64,000 nucleotides of DNA, from NCBI GenBank assembly GCA_947624415.1, contig CANQKH010000003.1, positions 59,494 through 123,493 of the forward strand, written 5' to 3'. The notes under the pieces were generated by a model. That model did no database searches and had not been told where the DNA came from. It saw nothing but the letters and a program-made list of their open reading frames with translations. The stretch is from an uncultured Clostridia bacterium. GTDB lineage: Bacteria; Bacillota; Clostridia; Christensenellales; UBA1242. Numbering within the stretch: position 1 is the stretch's first letter; each line of letters opens with the position of its first letter. This document shows, one piece after another, positions 41,758 to 52,916 of this stretch. Position numbers and translations under genes: made by a program.

Positions 41758-41764
41758 TTTTTAT

Positions 41765-41889
41765 ATCCATAAAGAGTGTGCGAGGGACAGCCCCTATGAC
41801 CACACAGCAACCTGCAAGTGCAAGGTGCTAATGGCTGACCGATGGGCAAAATACAAAAAATCATCCCATCTGTCTATGGTGGGTTTTTT
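41765..41889 (+). promoter_or_regulatory. SAM-I (S-box) riboswitch with intrinsic terminator
   Basis: The conserved S-box core is present: AGAGTGTGCGAGGGACAGCC, CTATGACCACACAGCAACC and AAGGTGCTAATGGCTGACC (41773-41840). P1 pairs TCCAT (41766-41770) with ATGGG (41842-41846). A terminator follows: CCCATC (41865-41870), GGTGGG (41878-41883) and six T (41884-41889). The P1 3' strand GATGGG (41841-41846) is an exact complement of the terminator arm CCCATC, so it can form the antiterminator when SAM is scarce. This is an OFF switch by transcription termination ahead of metK. Confidence 0.93.
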
Positions 41890-41927
41890 ATTGCACTTTT
41901 ATGGAAAAAATAATTAGGAGAAAAAAT

Positions 41928-43016
41928 ATGAGAAAGATAATTACCAGTGAAAGTGTAAATATTGGCCATCCAGACAAGACCTGCGATTTTATTGCTGATA
42001 CATTTTTAGATGAAGCATTAAAGCAGGATAAAGATAGTCAAATGGCAGTTGAATGTGCAATAAAAAACGACAAACTTTTTATTTATGGCGAGGCGACGAC
42101 TAAAGCAAAAATAGATTATGAAAAAATAGCCAGAAGAGTTTTAAAAGAAATTGGTTACAAAAATGAATTTAAAATAATCAAGGAAATAAGTGAGCAAAGC
42201 CCAGACATTAATCAAGCAGTTATAAAAGAGGAACTTTGCGCCAACGACCAAGGTATGGTGTATGGGTATGCAACAAATGAAACAAGGGAATATATGCCCA
42301 TGCCTATTATGGTTGCTCACAAGTTAATGAAAAGATATGATGAATTTAGAAGAAGGGGTAACAAATTTTTTGCAGATGCAAAGTGTCAAGTTTCAATTAT
42401 ATATGAGGATGAAAAGCCAAAAGAGTTTTCAACAATTTTAATAAGTGTTTCTCATGCGAAAAATGTCGAAAATGACATATTAAGGGAATTAATAACAAAA
42501 AATGTTATTATGCCAGTATTAGAAGAGTATAATGTGCTTATTTCCTCAAACACAGAATTTATAATCAATCCAAGTGGAAGATTCACAATTTGGGGAAGTT
42601 TTGGTGATAGTGGATGTGTTGGAAGAAAAATTGTTGTTGACACATATGGTGGTGTTGGAAGAGTGGGTGGAGGATGCTTTTCAAGTAAGAATGCAACAAA
42701 AGTTGACAGATCGGGTGCATATTATGCGAGATATGTTGCAAAAAATATTGTTGCACATGGGTATGCAGAAAGGTGTGAGATACAAATAGGGTATGCTATT
42801 GGTTATTTCCAACCAATTTCACTATCAATTGAATGTTTTGGAACGAACAATGTTTCATTAAGTGAAATAGAAAATTACGTAAATAAAAATTTTAATTTTA
42901 GACTTAGTAATATTATTAAAGAATTAAATCTTTTAAAACCAATTTATCAGCAAACGGCTTGCTACGGACATTTTGGATGGGAGAAATTTCCATGGGAAAA
43001 GATAAAAAATAATTAA
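41928..43016 (+). CDS. metK: S-adenosylmethionine synthetase, divergent
   Basis: 362 residues, about 20-30 fewer than usual. The start is the ATG at 41928 after AGGAG; the in-frame ATG at 41901 lies beyond the terminator without a ribosome site. Family landmarks are TSESVNIGHPDKTCDFIAD, ANDQGMVYGYATNET, GDSGCVGRKIVVDTYGG and GGCFSSKNATKVDRSGAY. The catalytic Lys and Asp residues of the last block are kept, but several usually fixed positions differ (GAGDQG is CANDQG; GAFSGKDP is GCFSSKNA). It joins methionine and ATP to make SAM. The SAM riboswitch directly upstream supports the call. Confidence 0.93.
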   Translation: MRKIITSESVNIGHPDKTCDFIADTFLDEALKQDKDSQMAVECAIKNDKLFIYGEATTKAKIDYEKIARRVLKEIGYKNEFKIIKEISEQSPDINQAVIKEELCANDQGMVYGYATNETREYMPMPIMVAHKLMKRYDEFRRRGNKFFADAKCQVSIIYEDEKPKEFSTILISVSHAKNVENDILRELITKNVIMPVLEEYNVLISSNTEFIINPSGRFTIWGSFGDSGCVGRKIVVDTYGGVGRVGGGCFSSKNATKVDRSGAYYARYVAKNIVAHGYAERCEIQIGYAIGYFQPISLSIECFGTNNVSLSEIENYVNKNFNFRLSNIIKELNLLKPIYQQTACYGHFGWEKFPWEKIKNN

Positions 43017-43968: not shown

Positions 43969-44832
43969 ATGAAAAACACTTTTTGGTCTTCGCAAGTTCA
44001 ATCAACAGAACTTTTATATTATTCGAGAAAAGAGAAATTCAATAAAGATAATAGGAATGATTGGTTTAAATATTTTAAAATAAAGAATGGAATGAAAATT
44101 CTTGAAGTTGGTTGTGGTGGTGGGCTTTTCACCAACATGATCAAACTTTATTTCCCAGATTGTGAAGTTTATGGCATTGATATTGACGACAATCATATTG
44201 AGTTTGCAAAGAAAAGATGTGCTGAATTAAAACTTGATGTAAAATACAGTGTGGCAGATATAAATAATCTTCCTTTTGAAAATGATATGTTTGATTTGGT
44301 TTTTTCTCATACAGTTGTCGAACATATACCTTTTGATATTTTTATTAAGGAACAAAAGAGGGTTTTAAAGGAAGGTGGAAGACTTTTAATCATGCGTGTA
44401 GATATGATAAAGAAAAACGATAAACCATTTATGTTTTTAGAGGATGAAATTGGTGAATTGTTTAGCAAATTAGAGTATAAAGAACGCGAGCCTGTTGCAA
44501 AATATCTTGAAGACCCAGACAAAACCATGCAAAGACTGAGTGAGTATAATTTTAAAAATATAGATTTAAAATTTGAAAGAATTGTTTATTATTCTCCGGA
44601 CACACAACCCAATAGAAAGAAAGCTATTGCCCAAATAGAAAGGAATTATTTGACAAAATTAACAAATGCATTATTTTGTTTGGAACGTGCAAACAATGGT
44701 GATATTGTAAAAGAGCAAATGTTGGATTTATTGGAAAAACAATATAAAGAAAGGTTGCGTTTATATGATAATAAAAGCAAAATATTTGATTTTCAATCTT
44801 CAATCATGATTTTTATAAGTGCAAAAAAATAA
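43969..44832 (+). CDS. class I SAM-dependent methyltransferase
   Basis: 287 residues. The SAM-binding core is KILEVGCGGGLFTNMIK (motif I, near residues 43-59), VYGIDIDDNHIEFAKKRC (motif II), VADINNLPFENDMFDLVFSH (motif III) and RVLKEGGRLLIMRVDM. A C-terminal portion of about 100 residues is helical. The substrate is unknown; the family acts on lipids, quinones and small molecules. It lies directly before the Asn attenuator unit, which has its own promoter, so the two are separate transcription units. Confidence 0.88.
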   Translation: MKNTFWSSQVQSTELLYYSRKEKFNKDNRNDWFKYFKIKNGMKILEVGCGGGLFTNMIKLYFPDCEVYGIDIDDNHIEFAKKRCAELKLDVKYSVADINNLPFENDMFDLVFSHTVVEHIPFDIFIKEQKRVLKEGGRLLIMRVDMIKKNDKPFMFLEDEIGELFSKLEYKEREPVAKYLEDPDKTMQRLSEYNFKNIDLKFERIVYYSPDTQPNRKKAIAQIERNYLTKLTNALFCLERANNGDIVKEQMLDLLEKQYKERLRLYDNKSKIFDFQSSIMIFISAKK

Positions 44833-44840
44833 AAAAAGTG

Positions 44841-44869
44841 TTGACAAAGCAAAAATATGGTGTTACAAT
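44841..44869 (+). promoter_or_regulatory. promoter of the leader-aspS-gatCAB operon
   Basis: Perfect TTGACA (44841-44846), 17-base spacer, TACAAT (44864-44869), with TGT before the -10 (extended). The expected start of transcription is about 44876, so the leader is about 275 nucleotides. Confidence 0.88.
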
Positions 44870-44888
44870 AAAAACACAAGGAGCAAAA

Positions 44889-44963
44889 ATGAAAGCATTA
44901 AGAGTTAATAACAATAATAATAACGCAAGCACATTTGATAATGGGTTTCTTTTATTATTGTAA
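44889..44963 (+). CDS. asparagine-rich leader peptide 1 (attenuator peptide)
   Basis: 24 residues. AAGGAG (44878-44883) lies five bases before the ATG. The peptide opens MKALRV and continues with six consecutive Asn codons (codons 7-12, 44907-44924), then ASTFD, a seventh Asn (codon 18), GF and LLLL. The stop TAA at 44961-44963 falls on the 5' strand of the antiterminator. The sequence is too short and skewed for an ordinary protein; the position between a strong promoter and a terminator is that of amino-acid-operon leader peptides such as trpL or hisL. Stalling at Asn codons would signal a shortage of Asn-tRNA. Confidence 0.88.
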   Translation: MKALRVNNNNNNASTFDNGFLLLL

Positions 44964-44997
44964 TTAACTAAAAATTAATTTGGACAGTTAAAACAAT
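44957..44997 (+). promoter_or_regulatory. antiterminator hairpin of the Asn attenuator
   Basis: TTAACT (44964-44969) pairs with AGTTAA (44986-44991), and ATTGT (44957-44961) with ACAAT (44993-44997), around a small internal loop. The 3' strand takes up most of the terminator's first arm (44991-45003), so the two structures exclude each other. The 5' strand overlaps the last codons and stop of leader peptide 1. Confidence 0.75.
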
Positions 44998-45028
44998 GGA
45001 GTGAAAGAAACCACTTCATTGTTTTTTT
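44991..45028 (+). terminator. intrinsic terminator of the Asn attenuator
   Basis: AAACAATGGAGTG (44991-45003) pairs over 13 positions (one G-U) with CACTTCATTGTTT (45012-45024); loop AAAGAAAC; T run 45022-45028. It lies before leader peptide 2 and the structural genes. Confidence 0.92.
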
Positions 45029-45045
45029 ATTCTATAGGAGGAATT

Positions 45046-45111
45046 ATGGAAAAGATTTTCTTATTTTTAAATAATTTGAATAACGCCGTAGCGGGCGGGA
45101 ATTTGTTATAG
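45046..45111 (+). CDS. asparagine-containing leader peptide 2
   Basis: 21 residues after a very strong ribosome site (AGGAGG, five to six bases before the ATG at 45046). Asn lies at codons 9, 10, 12, 13 and 19 (peptide MEKIFLFLNNLNNAVAGGN then LL), ending at TAG 45109-45111. The frame lies beyond the terminator, so only read-through transcripts carry it. Codons 4-10 (45056-45073) are complementary to the aspS ribosome site region. Such an arrangement is known from translation-attenuated resistance genes (ermC, cat), where a ribosome stalled on the leader frees the downstream site. Confidence 0.82.
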   Translation: MEKIFLFLNNLNNAVAGGNLL

Positions 45112-45147
45112 ACATTATTAATAAAAAAATATTTAAAAATAAGGAGA
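45056..45147 (+). promoter_or_regulatory. 18-bp helix that can bury the aspS ribosome binding site
   Basis: TTTTCTTATTTTTAAATA (45056-45073, inside leader peptide 2) pairs with TATTTAAAAATAAGGAGA (45130-45147), 18 contiguous pairs with two G-U. The 3' strand includes the full aspS Shine-Dalgarno AAGGAG (45141-45146). A small GC hairpin, CGCC/GGCG (45084-45097), sits in the loop. A ribosome at codons 9-13 would cover the 5' strand; one at the stop codon would not. Confidence 0.8.
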
Positions 45148-45152
45148 ATTTT

Positions 45153-46448
45153 ATGAAAAGAATATATATTAAAGATATTCAGCCCGATATTGAATGTCAA
45201 ATAAGTGGTTGGGTTGAAAAAATAAGGAGCCAAAAGACAATTATTTTTATTGTTTTAAAAGATGGCACAGGAAGAATACAAGTTACAATAGAGAAAGAAA
45301 AATTCAAGGACTTTTCGAGCAAAATTGAAAAACTTTCAAAGCACAGCGTTGTTAGTTTTGAGGGGAAAGCAATAAAACAAGATATGGTAACCCTTGGAGG
45401 AATTGAATTTTTGCCAGAAAAAATTGATATAGTAAGCATTGCGGAGCAATTGCCAATAGATGAGACAAGTGGAAAAGAATTAAAGTTGGATTATCGCTAT
45501 ATTGATTTGAGGCAAGACAAGGAAAGGTTAATTTTTCAAATAAGAACCTATGTTGAGCATATTATGAGGGAATTTTTTATAGAACATGATTTTATAGAGA
45601 TTCACACGCCAAAAATATCTACTCAATGTTCGGAGGGTGGTGCTGATGTGTTTGCTGTAGATTATTATGGACAGAAAGCATATTTGACACAAAGCCCACA
45701 ATTTTACAAGCAAATGGCGATAGCAAGTGGATTTGAAAAGGTTTTTGAAATTGGTGGATATTATCGAGCAGAGAAATCTTACACGGCACGCCATACAGCA
45801 GAAGCAGTTTGTTTGGATTTTGAAATTGCCCATATACAATCTCATCACGAGGTTATGGATTTAGAAGAAGAATGGTTTAAATATGTTTTAAACAAAGTTA
45901 AAGATAAATATGGAAGTGTAATAAAGGAAGTCTTTGATTTGGAAATCAAAGTTCCTCAAAAGATACCAAGAATCAAACTTTGTGAGGTGTTCAAAATATT
46001 TAAAGAGGTTTATGGCATGGAAATCCCAGAAGAAAAGCAGTTAGATTTAGAACCAGAGCAAGAGAAACTAATTTGTGAATATGCAGAAAAATATTATGGA
46101 AGCGAAGCGGTATTTATATGTGATTATCCTGCAGAATCGAGAGCATTTTATTCTAAAAAAATTGATTCAACATTTGACTGTATGTCCTTTGATATGTTAT
46201 ACCGAGGATGGGAGATGAATAGTGGAGCAATGAGAGAACATCGATATGAAGTTTTAAAAGAGCAAATAGAGGAGCATGGAATTGACAGCGAGAAGATGAA
46301 GGATTATTTACAATTTTTCAAATATGGATGCCCAACACATGGAGGAATAGGGTTTGGCATTGATAGATTTATAACAAAACTACTAGATTTGCCAAGCATT
46401 AAGGAAAGCATATTTTTATTCCGTGGGCCAAGCAGGATAAGACCATAA
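45153..46448 (+). CDS. aspS: aspartyl-tRNA synthetase, archaeal-type (probably non-discriminating)
   Basis: 431 residues, the length of archaeal-type AspRS2, lacking the GAD insertion of the 590-residue bacterial enzyme. An OB-fold anticodon domain occupies about 1-100. Class II motif 1 includes YIDLRQDKERLIFQIRTYVE. The aspartate site TPKISTQCSEGGADVFAVDYYGQKAYLTQSPQ and motif 2 FEIGGYYRAEKSYTARHTAE follow, then motif 3 GGIGFGIDRFITKLL. AspRS2 enzymes often charge both tRNA-Asp and tRNA-Asn with aspartate; the gatCAB genes right behind support that here. The ribosome site AAGGAG lies inside the 18-bp helix. Confidence 0.9.
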   Translation: MKRIYIKDIQPDIECQISGWVEKIRSQKTIIFIVLKDGTGRIQVTIEKEKFKDFSSKIEKLSKHSVVSFEGKAIKQDMVTLGGIEFLPEKIDIVSIAEQLPIDETSGKELKLDYRYIDLRQDKERLIFQIRTYVEHIMREFFIEHDFIEIHTPKISTQCSEGGADVFAVDYYGQKAYLTQSPQFYKQMAIASGFEKVFEIGGYYRAEKSYTARHTAEAVCLDFEIAHIQSHHEVMDLEEEWFKYVLNKVKDKYGSVIKEVFDLEIKVPQKIPRIKLCEVFKIFKEVYGMEIPEEKQLDLEPEQEKLICEYAEKYYGSEAVFICDYPAESRAFYSKKIDSTFDCMSFDMLYRGWEMNSGAMREHRYEVLKEQIEEHGIDSEKMKDYLQFFKYGCPTHGGIGFGIDRFITKLLDLPSIKESIFLFRGPSRIRP

Positions 46449-46461
46449 AAAGGAGGGGGAA

Positions 46462-46731
46462 ATGGAAATTGATATAAAACATTTACAGAATTTGAGTAAA
46501 TTAAAGTTAGAAGATGATGAGGTTGAATTATTTGAAAGAGATTTAAAAAACATCATTAATTTTGTTGACGAAATAACAACTTTAGAATTGCCTGAAGAGG
46601 ATAAAAGTCGAGCGGTAGCACTCAGCGAACTACGACAAGATGAAGAAGAAACAAAACCATCATATGATGTTCTTGCGAATGCTCCAAAGAAAAAAGAGGG
46701 GTGCTTTGTTACTCCTTTGGTGGTGGAATAA
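46462..46731 (+). CDS. gatC: Asp/Glu-tRNA amidotransferase subunit C
   Basis: 89 residues, typical GatC: IKHLQNLSKLKLEDDEVELF opens the protein, followed by the DLKNIINFVDEITTLELPEE helix pair and the extended linker ending in FVTPLVVE, the strand that wraps GatA. GatC stabilises the GatA-GatB complex. AGGAGGGGG precedes the ATG. It overlaps gatA by one base (TAATG). Confidence 0.93.
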   Translation: MEIDIKHLQNLSKLKLEDDEVELFERDLKNIINFVDEITTLELPEEDKSRAVALSELRQDEEETKPSYDVLANAPKKKEGCFVTPLVVE

Positions 46732-48161
46732 TGAAAGAATTTGACAAGATGGGAATAGAAGAAATTGTAATGGGAATAAAGTCCCAACACTTTAAAAGCG
46801 AAGAGGTTTTACAATTTTTTATAAAAAAATGCGAGGAAAACATAGATTATAATGCAGTAATTGAAGTTTTCGATGACTGTTTGCAGAAAGCCAGAGATAT
46901 TGATGATAAAATTTTAAGAGGCGAAAAGGTTGGATTGCTGGCAGGAATACCTGTTGCAATAAAGGATAACATTCTTTGCAAGGGCAGAAAAATGTCATGT
47001 GCTAGTAAATTTTTGCAAGATTTTGTTTCGCCATATTCATCAACAGTTGTCGAAAAACTAGAAAAAGAAGATGCCATTATATTTGCAAGAACGAATATGG
47101 ATGAATTTGCCATGGGTGGAAGTTGCGAAAATAGTATTTATGGTGCTTGTAAAAATGCCCATGATAAAACTTGTGTGTCTGGAGGCAGTAGCGGAGGCAG
47201 CGCTGTTGCAGTAGCACTTGGTCTTTGTCCAGTTGCAATAGGAACGGATACAGGTGGTTCAATAAGACAGCCAAGTTCTTTTAATGGTGTGGTTGGTATT
47301 AAGCCTACTTATGGGACAATTTCCAGATATGGAATAACCGCATTTGCAAGTTCTACAGACCAAGCCGGCCCAATAACGAAAAGTCTTGAAGATAATGAGT
47401 ATGTTCTTAAAATTCTTGCTGGAAAAGATAAAAATGATGGAACAAGTATAGATAATGATTTTGGAGCAAGAGGGGTAAAGCAAAGTTATAAAATAGGAAT
47501 ATGTAAAGAATTAAAAGAAAAAATTGAAAGGCTTGAAACTTATTATAATTTTAAAGGGGCAATAAAACTTTTAGAAGATAAAGGTTGCGAAATCGTTGAG
47601 GTATCAGTGCCACATATTGTAAACAGCCTCGCCTGTTACTATATATTAACTCCTGCAGAAGCGACGTCTAACTTGGCACGATTTGACGGGGTAAAATACA
47701 CGACAAGAAGCAAGACGGCAAAGAATGTAGATGAAGTATTTATAAAAAGTAGAAGTGAGGGATTTGGAAGGGAGGTTAAAAGAAGAATATTGTTGGGAAA
47801 CTTTGTTTTGTCAAGTGGGTATTTTGATGCTTATTACAACAAAGCAAAGAAATTGCAAACATTACTTAAAAAGGAATTTGAACTTGCTTTTCAAGAGTGT
47901 GATTGCATATTAACACCAACGACACCTAATGAGGCTTTTGAGATAGGTGGTAAAATCAATGACCCAATTTCAATGTATCTTGAAGATTTATTTACTGTTC
48001 CTGCAAGCATTTCTGGGATACCTGCAATATCAATACCATTTGGAAAGGGTAAAAGGGGTTTGCCATTGGGACTTCAAATAATGGGTGCAAATAGGACTGA
48101 AAAGATAATATATGATGTGGCTAAAATAATAAAGGGAGGTGAAAGGGATGCAAGAATATGA
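46731..48161 (+). CDS. gatA: Asp/Glu-tRNA amidotransferase subunit A
   Basis: 476 residues from the ATG at 46731 that overlaps the gatC stop. Amidase signature triad: Lys78 (VAIKDN), cis-Ser153 (VSGGSSGGSAVAVALG, split at the loop) and nucleophile Ser177 (GTDTGGSIRQPS). It releases ammonia from glutamine (or uses Asn) and passes it to GatB. The C-terminal part includes FTVPASISGIPAISIPFG. The gene overlaps gatB by 14 bases, so GatA and GatB are made together. Confidence 0.95.
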   Translation: MKEFDKMGIEEIVMGIKSQHFKSEEVLQFFIKKCEENIDYNAVIEVFDDCLQKARDIDDKILRGEKVGLLAGIPVAIKDNILCKGRKMSCASKFLQDFVSPYSSTVVEKLEKEDAIIFARTNMDEFAMGGSCENSIYGACKNAHDKTCVSGGSSGGSAVAVALGLCPVAIGTDTGGSIRQPSSFNGVVGIKPTYGTISRYGITAFASSTDQAGPITKSLEDNEYVLKILAGKDKNDGTSIDNDFGARGVKQSYKIGICKELKEKIERLETYYNFKGAIKLLEDKGCEIVEVSVPHIVNSLACYYILTPAEATSNLARFDGVKYTTRSKTAKNVDEVFIKSRSEGFGREVKRRILLGNFVLSSGYFDAYYNKAKKLQTLLKKEFELAFQECDCILTPTTPNEAFEIGGKINDPISMYLEDLFTVPASISGIPAISIPFGKGKRGLPLGLQIMGANRTEKIIYDVAKIIKGGERDARI

Positions 48162-49572
48162 TGTAGTTATCGGGCTTGAAATTCATGCTGAATTAAAGAC
48201 AAAAACCAAGGTGTTTTGCAGTTGTAAAAATGAATTTGGGGCAAAACCTAATGAAAACACTTGTCCGGTATGCACTGGTATGCCGGGTGCGTTGCCAATA
48301 ATAAACAAAAAAGCAGTAGAATTGTGCATTAAAGCAGGCTTGTGTTTTGACTGCTCGATATCACCTTATGCAGTAATGGAAAGAAAAAACTATTTTTATC
48401 CCGATCTTGCAAAAGCCTATCAAATAAGCCAAATGGTCTATCCCATTTGTGTTGGTGGAAAAATACAACTAAGAAGCGGAAAGGTTATGAGATTAAACAG
48501 GATACATTTGGAAGAGGACGCTGGCAAATTGACACATATAAGTCGTGCGATAGGGACATTGATTGATTATAATAGAGGAGGGACACCGCTTATTGAAATT
48601 GTAACAGAACCTGATTTTTCAACAGCGGAAGAAGTAGATGAATTTTTAAAAAGAGTAAGGGAAAGTTTAGTTTATTCAAATATAGCGGATTGCAAAATGG
48701 AGGAGGGCGGAATGAGATGTGATGTAAACTTATCCTTAAAGCCCCAAGGTTCATCAACTTTAGGAACAAGAACGGAAATGAAGAACCTGAACTCTTTTAA
48801 AAGTGTAACACGTGCGATTGAATATGAAATAAAAAGACAGACAGAAATTTTGAAAGAAGGTGGAAGAATAATACAAGAGACAAGAAAATGGGATGATGCA
48901 AAAGGGAAAAACATGAGTTTGAGAAGTAAGGAAGATTCGCAAGATTATAGATATTTTCCCGACCCTGATATACTGCCTATTTTAATAAGCAAAGATGATG
49001 TAGAGAGATTGAGAAGCCAAATGCCTGTTTTACCACAAAAAAGAAGAGAGATTTATGTTGAAAAATATGGATTACCAGAATATGATGCGATAATTTTAAC
49101 ATCTTCAAAATATATTTCTGATTATTTTGAAAAATGTCTTACTATTTATAACAATCCAAAAAAAATAAGCAACTGGATAATGGTTGATCTTTTAAAACTT
49201 GTAAAGGGACAGGAAGAATTTGTCTTTCCAATACGTGAAGAAGACTTGTGCGAAGTTATAAAGATGGTCGAGGATCATTTAATAAATAAAAATGTTGGTT
49301 TAGATATTATAGATGAAGTTATAAAAACTGGACATAAACCAAAAGATATTGCCAAAGAGAAAAATTTAATAGTTATTATAGGAGAGGAAGAGATTACTCA
49401 AATTTTGATTCAATTTAAAAATGAAAATGGAAAAGTTATTCAAGATTATTTAAATGAGCCAAGCCGTGTTATAGGATTTATAGTTGGTCATGTAATGAAG
49501 AAAACAGGAGGTAAGGCAAATCCAAATCTTGTTAAGGAATTAATTGAAAAGTTATATAAAAATAGGCAATGA
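48148..49572 (+). CDS. gatB: Asp/Glu-tRNA amidotransferase subunit B
   Basis: 474 residues from the ATG at 48148, after GGGAGGTG; the GTG at 48139 is in frame but lies on the ribosome site. The kinase-like cradle opens YDVVIGLEIHAELKTKTKVF, with CSCKNEFGAKPNENTCPVC (zinc-type cysteines), GALPIINKKAVE, YFYPDLAKAYQISQ and HLEEDAGKLTH. The C-terminal YqeY/tail domain includes NPNLVKELI. GatB binds the misacylated tRNA, activates Asp (or Glu) with ATP, and transfers ammonia from GatA. This is the last gene of the operon; a terminator overlaps its stop. Confidence 0.95.
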   Translation: MQEYDVVIGLEIHAELKTKTKVFCSCKNEFGAKPNENTCPVCTGMPGALPIINKKAVELCIKAGLCFDCSISPYAVMERKNYFYPDLAKAYQISQMVYPICVGGKIQLRSGKVMRLNRIHLEEDAGKLTHISRAIGTLIDYNRGGTPLIEIVTEPDFSTAEEVDEFLKRVRESLVYSNIADCKMEEGGMRCDVNLSLKPQGSSTLGTRTEMKNLNSFKSVTRAIEYEIKRQTEILKEGGRIIQETRKWDDAKGKNMSLRSKEDSQDYRYFPDPDILPILISKDDVERLRSQMPVLPQKRREIYVEKYGLPEYDAIILTSSKYISDYFEKCLTIYNNPKKISNWIMVDLLKLVKGQEEFVFPIREEDLCEVIKMVEDHLINKNVGLDIIDEVIKTGHKPKDIAKEKNLIVIIGEEEITQILIQFKNENGKVIQDYLNEPSRVIGFIVGHVMKKTGGKANPNLVKELIEKLYKNRQ

Positions 49573-49588
49573 AAAGTTGTCTATTTTT
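49558..49588 (+). terminator. terminator of the aspS-gatCAB operon
   Basis: AAAAATAGGCAA (49558-49569) pairs with TTGTCTATTTTT (49577-49588), one G-U, followed by more T; it overlaps the gatB stop codon. Confidence 0.85.
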
Positions 49589-49713
49589 TGTTAATTCATA
49601 AAAAAATAGTATAAATTTATATTCATTTTATATTTTAAATGTTAAATGATTTTTATATAATTTATGAATTAATTCAATTTAAAAAAATATAAAAATTTTT
49701 TTTAAAAAAGTAG

Positions 49714-49742
49714 TTGACAAGTTAAAAATTTTATGTTATACA
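49714..49742 (+). promoter_or_regulatory. promoter of the transglutaminase-like gene
   Basis: TTGACA (49714-49719), 17-base spacer, TATACA (49737-49742) with TGT before it. The 20 bases up to and including the -35 (49701-49720) recur exactly at 63972-63991. Confidence 0.8.
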
Positions 49743-49772
49743 TTGGTTGAAATTAAAAAAAAAGGAGGAGAA

Positions 49773-52700
49773 ATGAGTAAAAAATTTATTATAAAAAGTT
49801 TTATTATTGCACTTGTTATCGCATTTGCTTTGCCTTTAATTGTTTTGGGGGTAAATCCGCTCAAATTGGCAAAGGCAGATGATGTAGTTACTGCTGAAAA
49901 ATATTTTTATAATCAACTAACGAATGACACACAACGCGAATTTTACCATGAAATGGAAGAAATGGCTGAAATTGATGAGAATGGTGAGAGCGTGTTCATT
50001 CGAGGCGGCGACATGATTGTAGACGGGGTATTAACTCAGGAGCAACTTGCCGACTTTGCAACAGGGAAGTCAAATCAATTATTAAATGATTTTGGTGCGG
50101 CAAAGGATGCATTCTATTTTGATCATGCCGAATTATTCTATGTTGATTTTTCTTATCTTTCCTTTACTGTTTCATTGCGTAACGGTGAATATTTTTGCTA
50201 TCTAGGAACAGGAAGAGCAGAAACATATTATACGCAGGGAATTAATAGCAAAGCAGATTTACTTGTGTATATAAATGAGTATAATACAGCATTAGATAAA
50301 CTTGTAGAAGATGCTAGGAAAGAAACCAATATAGCAGAACAAGTTCGATATGTTCATAATAAAATTTCAGAGAAAGCAGTTTACAAACTTGAGAATACAG
50401 CAAAACCAAAAAATATAGGATTTATAAGAACGGCTTTTGGTGCTCTTGTAAAAGGGGAATGCTGTTGTGAAGGTTATGCTCGTGCATTTAAAAACGCATT
50501 GGACAAATTAGGAATTCCTTGCGTTCTTGTTCAAGGTGCATATCGCCATAGTTCAACTGCTGTTGAGTTACATATGTGGAATTATGTATATATAGATAAC
50601 GTTTGGCTTGGTGTTGACGTTACATTTGATGACCTTGACAAATCGATAAATGGCACAGAAATTTCATATAACTACTTCTTGAAGGGTGCAACTATTATGG
50701 ATAGACAACACGCTCCAAGTGCTATTGTATCAAAATCAAACTTTGAATTTGCTTATCCAGAGTTAAGCGAATTAAATTTTGGGGAAACATTTTCTAAGTC
50801 AAGCGAACTATTTAAAATATCTCAATCAAAAGGCGAACCTCTCAACCATCCAATTTATGAGAATGGACATATTTCGGGGTATGAGCCAGTATTGGATGAG
50901 AATGGGGAACAAGCATACGCAACAGATATTTCTGTTAGTTTTTACCTTGATGGAGAGTGGTGTAACTATACTAAATTAAAAAACAAGGGATACTACCTTT
51001 TAATGAAACAATATTTCATATCTACTGATGATGAAAAAGAGGACTTACATTCTACAAGATGGTCATACTTAGACCCTGAAATGTATTATTTGCCTGAGAC
51101 AGAGGACTCTTTACAACTTGAGGGGAACGCAACAACCACATATTTTGAATTTGCTGTAACAGATGTTCCTGCAAGAGATCCTGACACTATAAAAGGTGAT
51201 AGATTAACAAATCCAAATTTTGATGATTTAATGCTAGAAGTTACAACCTACTGTGGAGATCCAACAAAACTCTATGCTGAGTCAGGTCTTATTAAAGCCG
51301 AATATGGTGATCCTTATTATGTTGCACAGCCATACATTAAAAAATCAAGCCCTGTTCAAACAGGGAGTTTGACAACAGGTAAGACATATCATGTTGAAGT
51401 TTACTATGATGATAATTTAAAATTAAAAGACACAAATTTGCCTTATGGGGTATCTCTTGTTGGAGAAACGCCATATAATGAAGTTTTGCGCAATCTTGCA
51501 GATTATGTTACAATAGAAAATGTTAAATGGGATCCAAAGGTTGATGCTTCTAAGGTTGAATTTGACTTTACGCCAAGCGAAATGTTTGCTCATGATTCAA
51601 TACTCTATCTATTTTCTATGAAAAATCTTGTAGGGGAAAAGAGTGGAAAAACACCAAACGAGTTGATTTACTACATAACTCATGGTTGTGTTGCTCATGC
51701 TTATGCGGCACAAGGTTATGATTGGAATTTGTTTGCAAAACCACAACTTCTTGAGAACGCAGATCTTTCTATGCAAAATTGGGAGACAAGCGATGGAGAG
51801 GAGGTAAGTGATTTATTAAGACACCGCCTTGCTCTTGTTGTAACAAACACAACCTATGAACAAGAAGAGGAAATGGAAAAATTGATAAGCGGAGTGTCTG
51901 GTGGAAAAGAAATTAAAGAAAGCCAAACATACAATATAAGCCTAACTGTTTGCAAAGCACAAGTTGTAAGAACTGGGGACAAAGTTCGTATATCTCTTGG
52001 ATTCCCAGAAGGATATGGTCCTAACGATGCCGGTGTTACATTCAAGGCATATCACTTTATGAGAGATGAGCAAAATCATGTAACTGGAGTTGAAGAAATT
52101 GATTGTATTATAACTGAGTATGGTCTCATTATTACCTGTAATGCATTCAGTCCATTTGCAATTGTTGCTGTTGAAGCAGACCAAGAAACTCCTGTAAATG
52201 CAATGAAACAAGTTATACTTTCAAATAATTATGGTGGAACAGTTACTGGAGATGTTCAAGGTTCAATAATATCACTTGATAAAGATTTGCTCACTGAAGA
52301 AGATGAAGAAGAAACAGTTACAATTGAAGCAGCAACTGGTTACATAATTGAATCTATAACTCTTGATGGCACTGTTGTAGAATTTTCAGACAATAAGACA
52401 GCATATGTTACATTAAAATATGATGAGATTTCAAATCTTCAAACTATACTTGATGTTAAGTTTATAACAGAAGTGGCAGCAGAGAAGCAAGAAGAAATTA
52501 TTCACAGCACATTAAAAGCGGCAAAAATCGAAGTGGCAAGTGAGATAACGATTGATGTTGGTCAAAAATTAAATATTGTTGCCAATGTAGAAGAGTTTGG
52601 TGATGTGAACACTTATTTCTGGTATAAGGACGGTCAACAAGTTCCAAATCAACACGGCAAAACGTTAACAATAGATTATGCAAATCAAGAAGATGCTGGT

Positions 52701-52916
52701 AGTTATAGACTAGTTGTAGTTTCAAGTTCTAACAATCAAAGCATTAGCACAGAAAGTTCAATTATTAACGTTATAGTAAATGGAAAAGATGATACAAATG
52801 ATAAAGATTTAGATAAGGAAGTTCTTATATTAGCAATTTCAATTCCTGCGATAGCAGTTGTTGCCTTCATATTGTTATTGGCAATAATATTGATGAAGAA
52901 GAAAAAACAACAATAA
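49773..52916 (+). CDS. secreted transglutaminase-like surface protein with Ig-like domain
   Basis: 1047 residues from the ATG at 49773 behind AAGGAGGAG. A signal peptide (about 1-36) ends with a likely cut after AKA. A transglutaminase-like fold lies near 170-300, with catalytic-type Cys232 (GECCCEGYA, preceded by two more Cys), His267 (ELHMWNY) and Asp282 (LGVDVTFDD). An immunoglobulin-like domain lies near 935-1005 (YFWYKDGQQVPNQHGKTLTI, DAGSYRLVVV). A C-terminal membrane helix (about 1015-1038) and a KKKKQQ tail anchor it. It probably acts on the cell surface, either crosslinking or as a cysteine peptidase; bacterial members vary. It has its own promoter and terminator. Confidence 0.88.
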   Translation: MSKKFIIKSFIIALVIAFALPLIVLGVNPLKLAKADDVVTAEKYFYNQLTNDTQREFYHEMEEMAEIDENGESVFIRGGDMIVDGVLTQEQLADFATGKSNQLLNDFGAAKDAFYFDHAELFYVDFSYLSFTVSLRNGEYFCYLGTGRAETYYTQGINSKADLLVYINEYNTALDKLVEDARKETNIAEQVRYVHNKISEKAVYKLENTAKPKNIGFIRTAFGALVKGECCCEGYARAFKNALDKLGIPCVLVQGAYRHSSTAVELHMWNYVYIDNVWLGVDVTFDDLDKSINGTEISYNYFLKGATIMDRQHAPSAIVSKSNFEFAYPELSELNFGETFSKSSELFKISQSKGEPLNHPIYENGHISGYEPVLDENGEQAYATDISVSFYLDGEWCNYTKLKNKGYYLLMKQYFISTDDEKEDLHSTRWSYLDPEMYYLPETEDSLQLEGNATTTYFEFAVTDVPARDPDTIKGDRLTNPNFDDLMLEVTTYCGDPTKLYAESGLIKAEYGDPYYVAQPYIKKSSPVQTGSLTTGKTYHVEVYYDDNLKLKDTNLPYGVSLVGETPYNEVLRNLADYVTIENVKWDPKVDASKVEFDFTPSEMFAHDSILYLFSMKNLVGEKSGKTPNELIYYITHGCVAHAYAAQGYDWNLFAKPQLLENADLSMQNWETSDGEEVSDLLRHRLALVVTNTTYEQEEEMEKLISGVSGGKEIKESQTYNISLTVCKAQVVRTGDKVRISLGFPEGYGPNDAGVTFKAYHFMRDEQNHVTGVEEIDCIITEYGLIITCNAFSPFAIVAVEADQETPVNAMKQVILSNNYGGTVTGDVQGSIISLDKDLLTEEDEEETVTIEAATGYIIESITLDGTVVEFSDNKTAYVTLKYDEISNLQTILDVKFITEVAAEKQEEIIHSTLKAAKIEVASEITIDVGQKLNIVANVEEFGDVNTYFWYKDGQQVPNQHGKTLTIDYANQEDAGSYRLVVVSSSNNQSISTESSIINVIVNGKDDTNDKDLDKEVLILAISIPAIAVVAFILLLAIILMKKKKQQ

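Follow-up and report, generated by a model that had tools for sequence, protein, structure and literature searches.

The aspS2-gatCAB operon in a 64,000-nucleotide window of an uncultured Clostridia bacterium (contig CANQKH010000003.1) encodes an archaeal-type aspartyl-tRNA synthetase (AspRS) and GatCAB, and is preceded by two short leader open reading frames (ORFs) in tandem, both rich in Asn codons. We propose that the two leaders probably act as a two-step attenuator, through which shortage of Asn-tRNA would switch on the operon at transcription and then at translation, opening a de novo route to Asn; in the window itself, folding models make such a dual switch likely. When Asn-tRNA is short, a ribosome would halt within the Asn run of leader 1 and block the terminator, and one held up at the Asn codons of leader 2 would keep the ribosome-binding site of aspS2 open. 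When Asn-tRNA is ample, folding suggests that the leader 1 ribosome would reach its stop codon, with the antiterminator lost and the terminator formed, and that on readthrough transcripts the leader 2 ribosome would pass codon 13 and a stem would close over the aspS2 Shine-Dalgarno (SD) sequence. The operon would be used when Asn for the asparaginyl-tRNA synthetase (AsnRS) runs out. Translation of both leaders, the stalling, both switches and a non-discriminating AspRS are the parts of the scheme that we infer.

The locus was read from 44000 to 50200 of the window, together with its ORF list; all features lie on the forward strand. Transcription may start from a promoter-like TTGACA-17-TACAAT (44841–44869; consensus matched at 11 of 12 positions, with TG ahead of the –10), which was the top of 39 promoter-like sites in a 6.2-kb scan. 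Leader ORF 1 (MKALRVNNNNNNASTFDNGFLLLL; 44889–44963) has an SD and an ATG at 44889, and its six-residue Asn run occupies codons 7–12; no ORF of at least 100 aa in the window has an Asn run longer than three. A predicted antiterminator, the pairing of regions 2 and 3 (44945–45012), is followed by an intrinsic terminator (44990 to 45025 or 45029; 14-pair stem and T-run). Leader ORF 2 (MEKIFLFLNNLNNAVAGGNLL; 45046–45111) starts at an ATG at 45046 behind the SD AGGAGG (45036–45041) and has Asn codons at positions 9, 10, 12, 13 and 19. Its codons 3–10 contain the 5′ arm (45052–45073) of a predicted stem whose 3′ arm (45129–45152) includes the aspS2 SD (45140–45146). Codon 13 (AAC, 45082–45084), the putative sensed codon, contributes its wobble base to a predicted hairpin, CGCC[GUAGCG]GGCG (45084–45097), recognised as conserved by comparison of tandem loci. 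Profile matches identified the genes that follow as aspS2 (45153–46448), for an archaeal-type aspartate--tRNA(Asn) ligase of 431 aa, gatC (46462–46731), gatA (46731–48161) and gatB (48139–49572, with the ATG at 48148 as the likelier start). The aspS2 product exceeded the threshold of NF003483 (435.7 bits, cut-off 353) and fell slightly under that of TIGR00458 (355.2 bits, cut-off 368.4). The archaeal-type AspRS and GatCAB named in the original prediction for this DNA are borne out; the AspRS is predicted to be non-discriminating. An SD, a short ORF and a terminator occur together at two places in the window (both strands), with a residue run longer than two only here, and the leader region folds with z = –4.8 against dinucleotide shuffles. 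The anatomy is real and is kept in part of the family.

The original prediction implied that the leaders would be conserved, and a survey of relatives for single and double leaders (loci designated by L numbers) agrees with this: both recur before aspS2-gatCAB and also before asnA, and single leaders exist as well. Among 30 aspS2 loci fetched with AspRS, both leaders were present at seven (the window, L008, L009, L010, L011, L013 and L017), and at an eighth, L007, the sequence begins at a contig end 367 nt upstream, a stretch with neither leader. The other 22 had no Asn/Asp run, hairpin (500 nt searched) or T-box, which counts against the proposed attenuator. Motif searches added the tandem loci L093, L103, L107 and L072. 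Among 30 asnA loci fetched with AsnA, 16 had both leaders directly upstream and two more had them beyond one intervening gene (18 of the 29 assessable; L153 begins at a contig end). Leader 1 stood alone at six (L131, L152 and L155 being without a clear SD and L150 having only NN pairs), and neither leader was found at five of the 30. The genes intervening between tandem leaders and asnA, in L119 and L099 of two genomes, are uncharacterised (252 aa, and about 255 aa counted from ATG).

The survey was repeated free of any motif on 20 stretches lying ahead of gatB or of its aspS, taken from the 28 gatB matches of the genus (the window's own genome and G223 were already known, and six others were left out). 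In 3 of 18 assessable stretches both leaders precede aspS2 (L196, L197, L201), and five have a single Asn-rich leader (L199, L200, L202, L203, L204). The latter include two copies in one genome with the leader before aspS2 (L203, L204), a leader before gatCAB alone (L199), and two stretches where one Asn-rich leader (MDKQNNQNNNNLSRDIF; L200:2555-2608, L202:2545-2598) and a terminator precede a bacterial-type aspS followed by gatCAB. In seven more, a T-box precedes an aspS that is more distant (L194, at 688–907, L205, L207, L208, L209, L211, L213), and one genome, G131, carries both L194 and the Asp-leader gene of L163. Neither leader nor T-box was found in L198, L210 and L212; L195 and L206 were not assessable. 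T-boxes and leader peptides thus replace each other before the same aspS-gat operon within one genus, and the operon behind T-boxes, single or tandem Asn leaders offers a natural series for the replacement of one tRNA sensor by another. A T-box reading of the window leader was rejected, there being no Rfam match in it or in any of 12 relatives with tandem leaders that were scanned. The same search works elsewhere in the window's own genome (contig C4, L036:17172-17392, 124 bits): the species uses T-boxes, though not for aspS2-gatCAB.

Leader 1 has the make-up of a transcription attenuator of the trp/his type, which combines a codon run, alternative pairings and a terminator. It is an ORF with an SD and a codon run that matches the product of the operon, and in the folding model its antiterminator and U-tailed terminator would be mutually exclusive and gated by ribosome position. 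In the model the ribosome footprint was held unpaired, the transcript was cut at the terminator loop, and 2:3 (antiterminator) pairs were counted. The window leader was predicted to form about 22 such pairs while the A site holds any of codons 2–15, and so any Asn codon of the run, 20 pairs at codon 16, and only 2 to 4 from codon 17 onward. Over 32 loci the median was 1.4 pairs for the ribosome-free leader, 16.4 for the stalled and 1.9 for the ribosome at the stop codon, and the stalled state exceeded the stop state by more than 2 pairs in 30 of them. In this set the wrong terminator was taken for L140 and probably for L134, both dropped from the shuffle test; an automatic choice of leader 1 was wrong for L008 and too long for L127. 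Shuffling of region 2 reduced the gain from 9.7 to 3.2 pairs (30 loci), the real gain lying above the shuffle mean in 25 of the 30.

Several results of the same modelling speak against an attenuator at leader 1. At only 9 of the 30 loci did the real gain top every one of 30 shuffles, the window tying its best shuffle, and at five it was under the shuffle mean. L009 showed no stalled-state gain, and the gain of L163 was +7.9 or –8.0 pairs depending on where the transcript was truncated. In addition, the ribosome-free window leader also favours the antiterminator in the model (21.9 pairs), in which it differs from trp/his-type attenuators. By eye, a second terminator-like hairpin was seen between leaders 1 and 2 of asnA in L127 (=L043), L128 (=L042) and L048.

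The translational step was approached through the predicted cost of opening the SD of the main gene. For the window aspS2 this is 10.25 kcal/mol on the free RNA and 10.4 with a ribosome at the leader 2 stop codon; it falls to 1.2–1.7 kcal/mol with the A site at codons 3–13 and rises again to 5.7 at codon 14 and 10.1 at codon 16, staying near 10 beyond it. Asn codons 9, 10, 12 and 13 all lie inside this SD-open zone, codon 13 being its last. For comparison, the cost was 0.16–3.14 kcal/mol for 18 other window ORFs (at least 120 aa, strong SD). In the folding model, the window SD would be sequestered and would be freed by a stalled ribosome, as in a translation attenuator, and L103, a close relative, behaves in part like the window (8.6 kcal/mol free, 4.2 stalled, 12.0 at stop). 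Of the original claim that two tandem leaders read Asn, both ORFs stand, the first fits the transcriptional mode, and the second fits the translational mode in the window, on folding; sequestration of the SD does not extend to most relatives and is not conserved along with leader 2.

This last point was examined at 28 strong-SD loci, of which 26 have leader 2 (L008, L009, L138 and L139 were dropped for want of a strong SD). The difference between the stop and stalled states exceeded +0.5 in 5 of the 27 loci where both states could be computed (the window, L103, L127, L134 and L048), and three further loci gave –0.3, +1.7 and +2.7. On the other side, and against a translational switch, the cost exceeded 5 kcal/mol in only 5 of the 28, and the 28 costs were not above those of 65 control ORFs, the window aspS2 among the 65 (p 0.37). 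The stop-minus-stall difference was below –0.5 in 7 of the 27 loci, and for 20 of 29 relatives no computed state cost as much as 2.5 kcal/mol. These costs rule out sequestration of the SD as a family-wide rule for leader 2, and because they are so low in 20 of the 29, leader 2 must work by other means in most relatives, or have no effect on initiation at all. In L142, L147, L093 and L107, leader 2 reaches nearly to the start of the main gene or into it, so a terminating ribosome could cover the SD, as it does at rtpLP of Bacillus subtilis.

The low costs in most relatives, together with the six asnA loci and five gat stretches where leader 1 stands alone, would also fit a scheme in which only leader 1 senses Asn-tRNA and leader 2, a short ORF, plays a constitutive or stabilising part through reinitiation or mRNA protection, its Asn codons being incidental. 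Reinitiation at leader peptides has been proposed in the accessible text of PMC4833913. We consider this scheme unlikely, since the window Asn codons 9–13 all fall in the SD-open zone and, as described below, leader 2 carries a codon abutting a hairpin in all tandem loci and that codon changes along with the leader 1 run.

The codon sensed appears, from the sequences compared, to follow the product of the downstream gene. Leader 1 runs are dominated by Asn in all 11 tandem-leader aspS2-gat loci (the window, L008, L009, L011, L013, L093, L107, L103, L196, L197, L201), with Asn and Asp mixed in both leaders of L011 and L013. Both leader-bearing loci of stand-alone aspS2 have an Asp-rich leader 1 (L017/L163, run NDDDD; L072, MKLIIDCDKDDNLLTHN) and a GAY codon at the leader 2 hairpin. 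L162 could be assigned to neither class, its contig ending after aspS. Of the six loci whose leader 1 run includes Asp, four have GAY at the hairpin, against none of the 24 whose run lacks it (P = 0.0005, kinship not corrected).

All 33 tandem loci examined share a predicted hairpin, short and rich in GC, whose first base is the wobble base of an Asn or Asp codon. Thirty of these had been selected by the motif [AG]A[CT]GCC-N5..9-GGC, so that codon and triplets are there partly by selection; the other three were found through gatB, free of the motif. GCC-N6-GGC directly follows the sensed codon in 31 of the 33, and in L162 and L163 there is one extra nucleotide on each side, pairable in both (C-G and U-G, respectively), with the frame of the 3′ half shifted. 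The 30 motif-picked loci read Y-GCC-[6 nt]-GGC-G, or one pair longer, with a hexaloop N-U-R-R-M-R. The three gatB-found loci have AAT-GCC-N6-GGC in the leader frame, loops CUUGCG, CCAAAG and CUUUUG, and 4–5 pairs with a tetraloop. The pair formed by the wobble base is U-A in L197 and C-G or U-G in the others. Stem and position of the hairpin are kept and the loop is not; a fixed hexaloop as a general rule was withdrawn, being absent from the three gatB-found loci. An SD and ATG lie in the frame of the sensed codon in 30 of 30 loci, compared with 0 of 30 for the other two frames, and likewise in 3 of 3 further tandem loci. GCC makes up 13% of the Ala codons and GGC 19% of the Gly codons of the window.

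Across the order, the motif matched in 4 of 396 genomes, two of them within the family; of the two outside, L164 lies inside a 400-codon frame and L165 is out of frame with the nearest ATG. A scan of 84,980 genomes returned 41 stretches. All 19 with less than 40% GC are leaders, standing ahead of asnA, of aspS2 or of another gene, which is itself followed by asnA in two cases. Of the remaining 22, 17 fall inside long ORFs, 4 lack an ORF that begins with ATG, and L126 has a short ORF before an unrelated frame. A codon-free version of the motif gave 71 family matches, of which 52 were inspected. Three other accounts of the element were set aside. A peptide arrest motif NAVAG is unlikely as the main constraint, for it is altered to AHGG in L162, AFGR in L163, APKG in L197, ALLG in L201 and AVTG in L142, with GCC and GGC still pairable. 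Bypassing of the T4 gene 60 kind would call for a landing codon, which by eye was not consistent across loci, and a 7-base match (GCCGTAG) between the hairpin and an arm of tRNA-Asn is likely due to chance.

The hairpin is the most original part of the system and possibly a new RNA element. Tentatively, leader 2 could represent a new class of codon-gated RNA switch, in which a hairpin on the wobble base turns a single Asn or Asp codon into a tRNA sensor, retuned by single-base Asn-to-Asp changes from AsnA and AspRS-GatCAB to stand-alone AspRS. A related account, which we hold to be rather doubtful, has leader 2 work through its hairpin as a codon-gated element: the hairpin would tie up the wobble base of that codon, competing in the ribosome with the tRNA that reads it, or would be a signal melted and hidden by the stalled ribosome. 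The near-invariant GCC-N6-GGC right after the codon, the pairable extensions in L162 and L163 and the U-A pair of L197 are consistent with it, and docking of an mRNA hairpin in the A site can impede the binding of tRNA (PMC7282821, in its accessible part), which we transfer to leader 2 only by analogy. The hairpins described there, however, lie 11–12 nt from the P-site codon, not beside the A-site codon; the loop sequence of leader 2 varies among the motif-free loci, and no downstream effector turned up at loci with a free SD. If the idea is true, a hairpin fused to the sensed codon would be an RNA element open to direct test, and might reveal how a single codon becomes a sensitive tRNA sensor.

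Returning to the two-step attenuator, we asked what the operon would supply. The original prediction had Asn-tRNA made through this operon in a genome lacking asnS; this did not hold, as asnS is present on another contig (632.6 bits to NF003037), directly after a bacterial aspS (692 bits), so that the operon is not the only source of Asn-tRNA. Within 563 nt upstream of this pair neither an Asn/Asp-run leader nor the hairpin was found. Because the genome has asnS and a bacterial aspS, aspS2-gatCAB is likely a second, de novo Asn route, in which Asp would be charged onto tRNA-Asn and then amidated. The tRNA-Asn has the U1-A72 pair, which is described as required for GatCAB, and for Deinococcus and Thermus a gene set of this kind is described as an Asn-making route (PMC4206432, in its accessible part). 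The assembly is 90.4% complete and 5.2% contaminated with 25 tRNA matches, so that absences from it are weak. With this limit, asnA was not found in it, and MnmA was the sole match to Asn_synthase; asnA (TIGR00669) occurs in 32 of 309 family genomes.

One gatB is present, and GlnRS was not found in this 90% complete assembly. Were GlnRS truly absent, GatCAB would also serve Gln-tRNA, and a switch responding to Asn only would be costly, which counts against the proposed attenuator. The same absence could be read to mean that GatCAB is mainly for Gln-tRNA and that the Asn leaders are relics. We regard this as quite improbable: gatB was found in 27 of 61 genus genomes and is unmatched in the other 34, or in 23 of the 44 good ones, by a search that did not extend to GlnRS; Gln-tRNA can therefore presumably be made otherwise in the group, and the leaders are common to asnA. 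A second gltX-like copy in the genome of the window (G000:C2:15172-16795) has two internal TGA codons and 55% identity to the intact copy.

The tandem use of transcriptional and translational sensing of one amino acid, which the original prediction held to be undescribed, has a precedent in print in the rtpA (anti-TRAP) leader of B. subtilis. A literature search, with most subscription journals outside its reach, turned up no tandem Asn leader and no leader-peptide control of aspS2-gatCAB or asnA among the titles and abstract openings it listed. Studies of the rtpA leader are reportedly those of Chen and Yanofsky (2003, 2004). By its title, Saad et al. (2012) is said to deal with T-box control of tRNA-dependent amidation in Clostridium acetobutylicum, where direct and indirect Asn routes coexist. 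The Asn amidation route would be controlled there too, and T-boxes stand at seven gat-linked aspS loci of the window's genus, in contrast to the window leader and its 12 scanned tandem relatives. In the accessible text of the rtpA papers, a single leader responds to one tRNA in transcription as well as in translation, the latter through tRNA-dependent ribosome stalling (PMC11255114, PMC4027176); its transcriptional step is a T-box and its amino acid Trp, whereas the window has a second leader peptide, Asn, and an operon predicted to make the sensed Asn-tRNA. The Salmonella mgtCBR leader also contains two tandem short ORFs, but these answer two signals, ATP and proline, and B. subtilis tlrB (yxjB) combines transcription and translation attenuation with an SD-sequestering hairpin, but through a single leader peptide and drug-dependent stalling (accessible parts of PMC3641672 and PMC6851288, respectively). 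The system would be a variation on ribosome-mediated attenuation, in which dual sensing of one tRNA, already known, falls to two leader peptides for Asn. If the proposed attenuator is real, one lineage controls two routes to new Asn, free (AsnA) and tRNA-bound (AspRS-GatCAB), through the same leader-peptide pair.

Two features of the window lie on either side of the operon. A large protein encoded at 49773–52916 has a partial match, under the cut-off, to a transglutaminase-related lipoprotein family, and a SAM-I riboswitch (41764–41848) stands ahead of metK (41901–43016).

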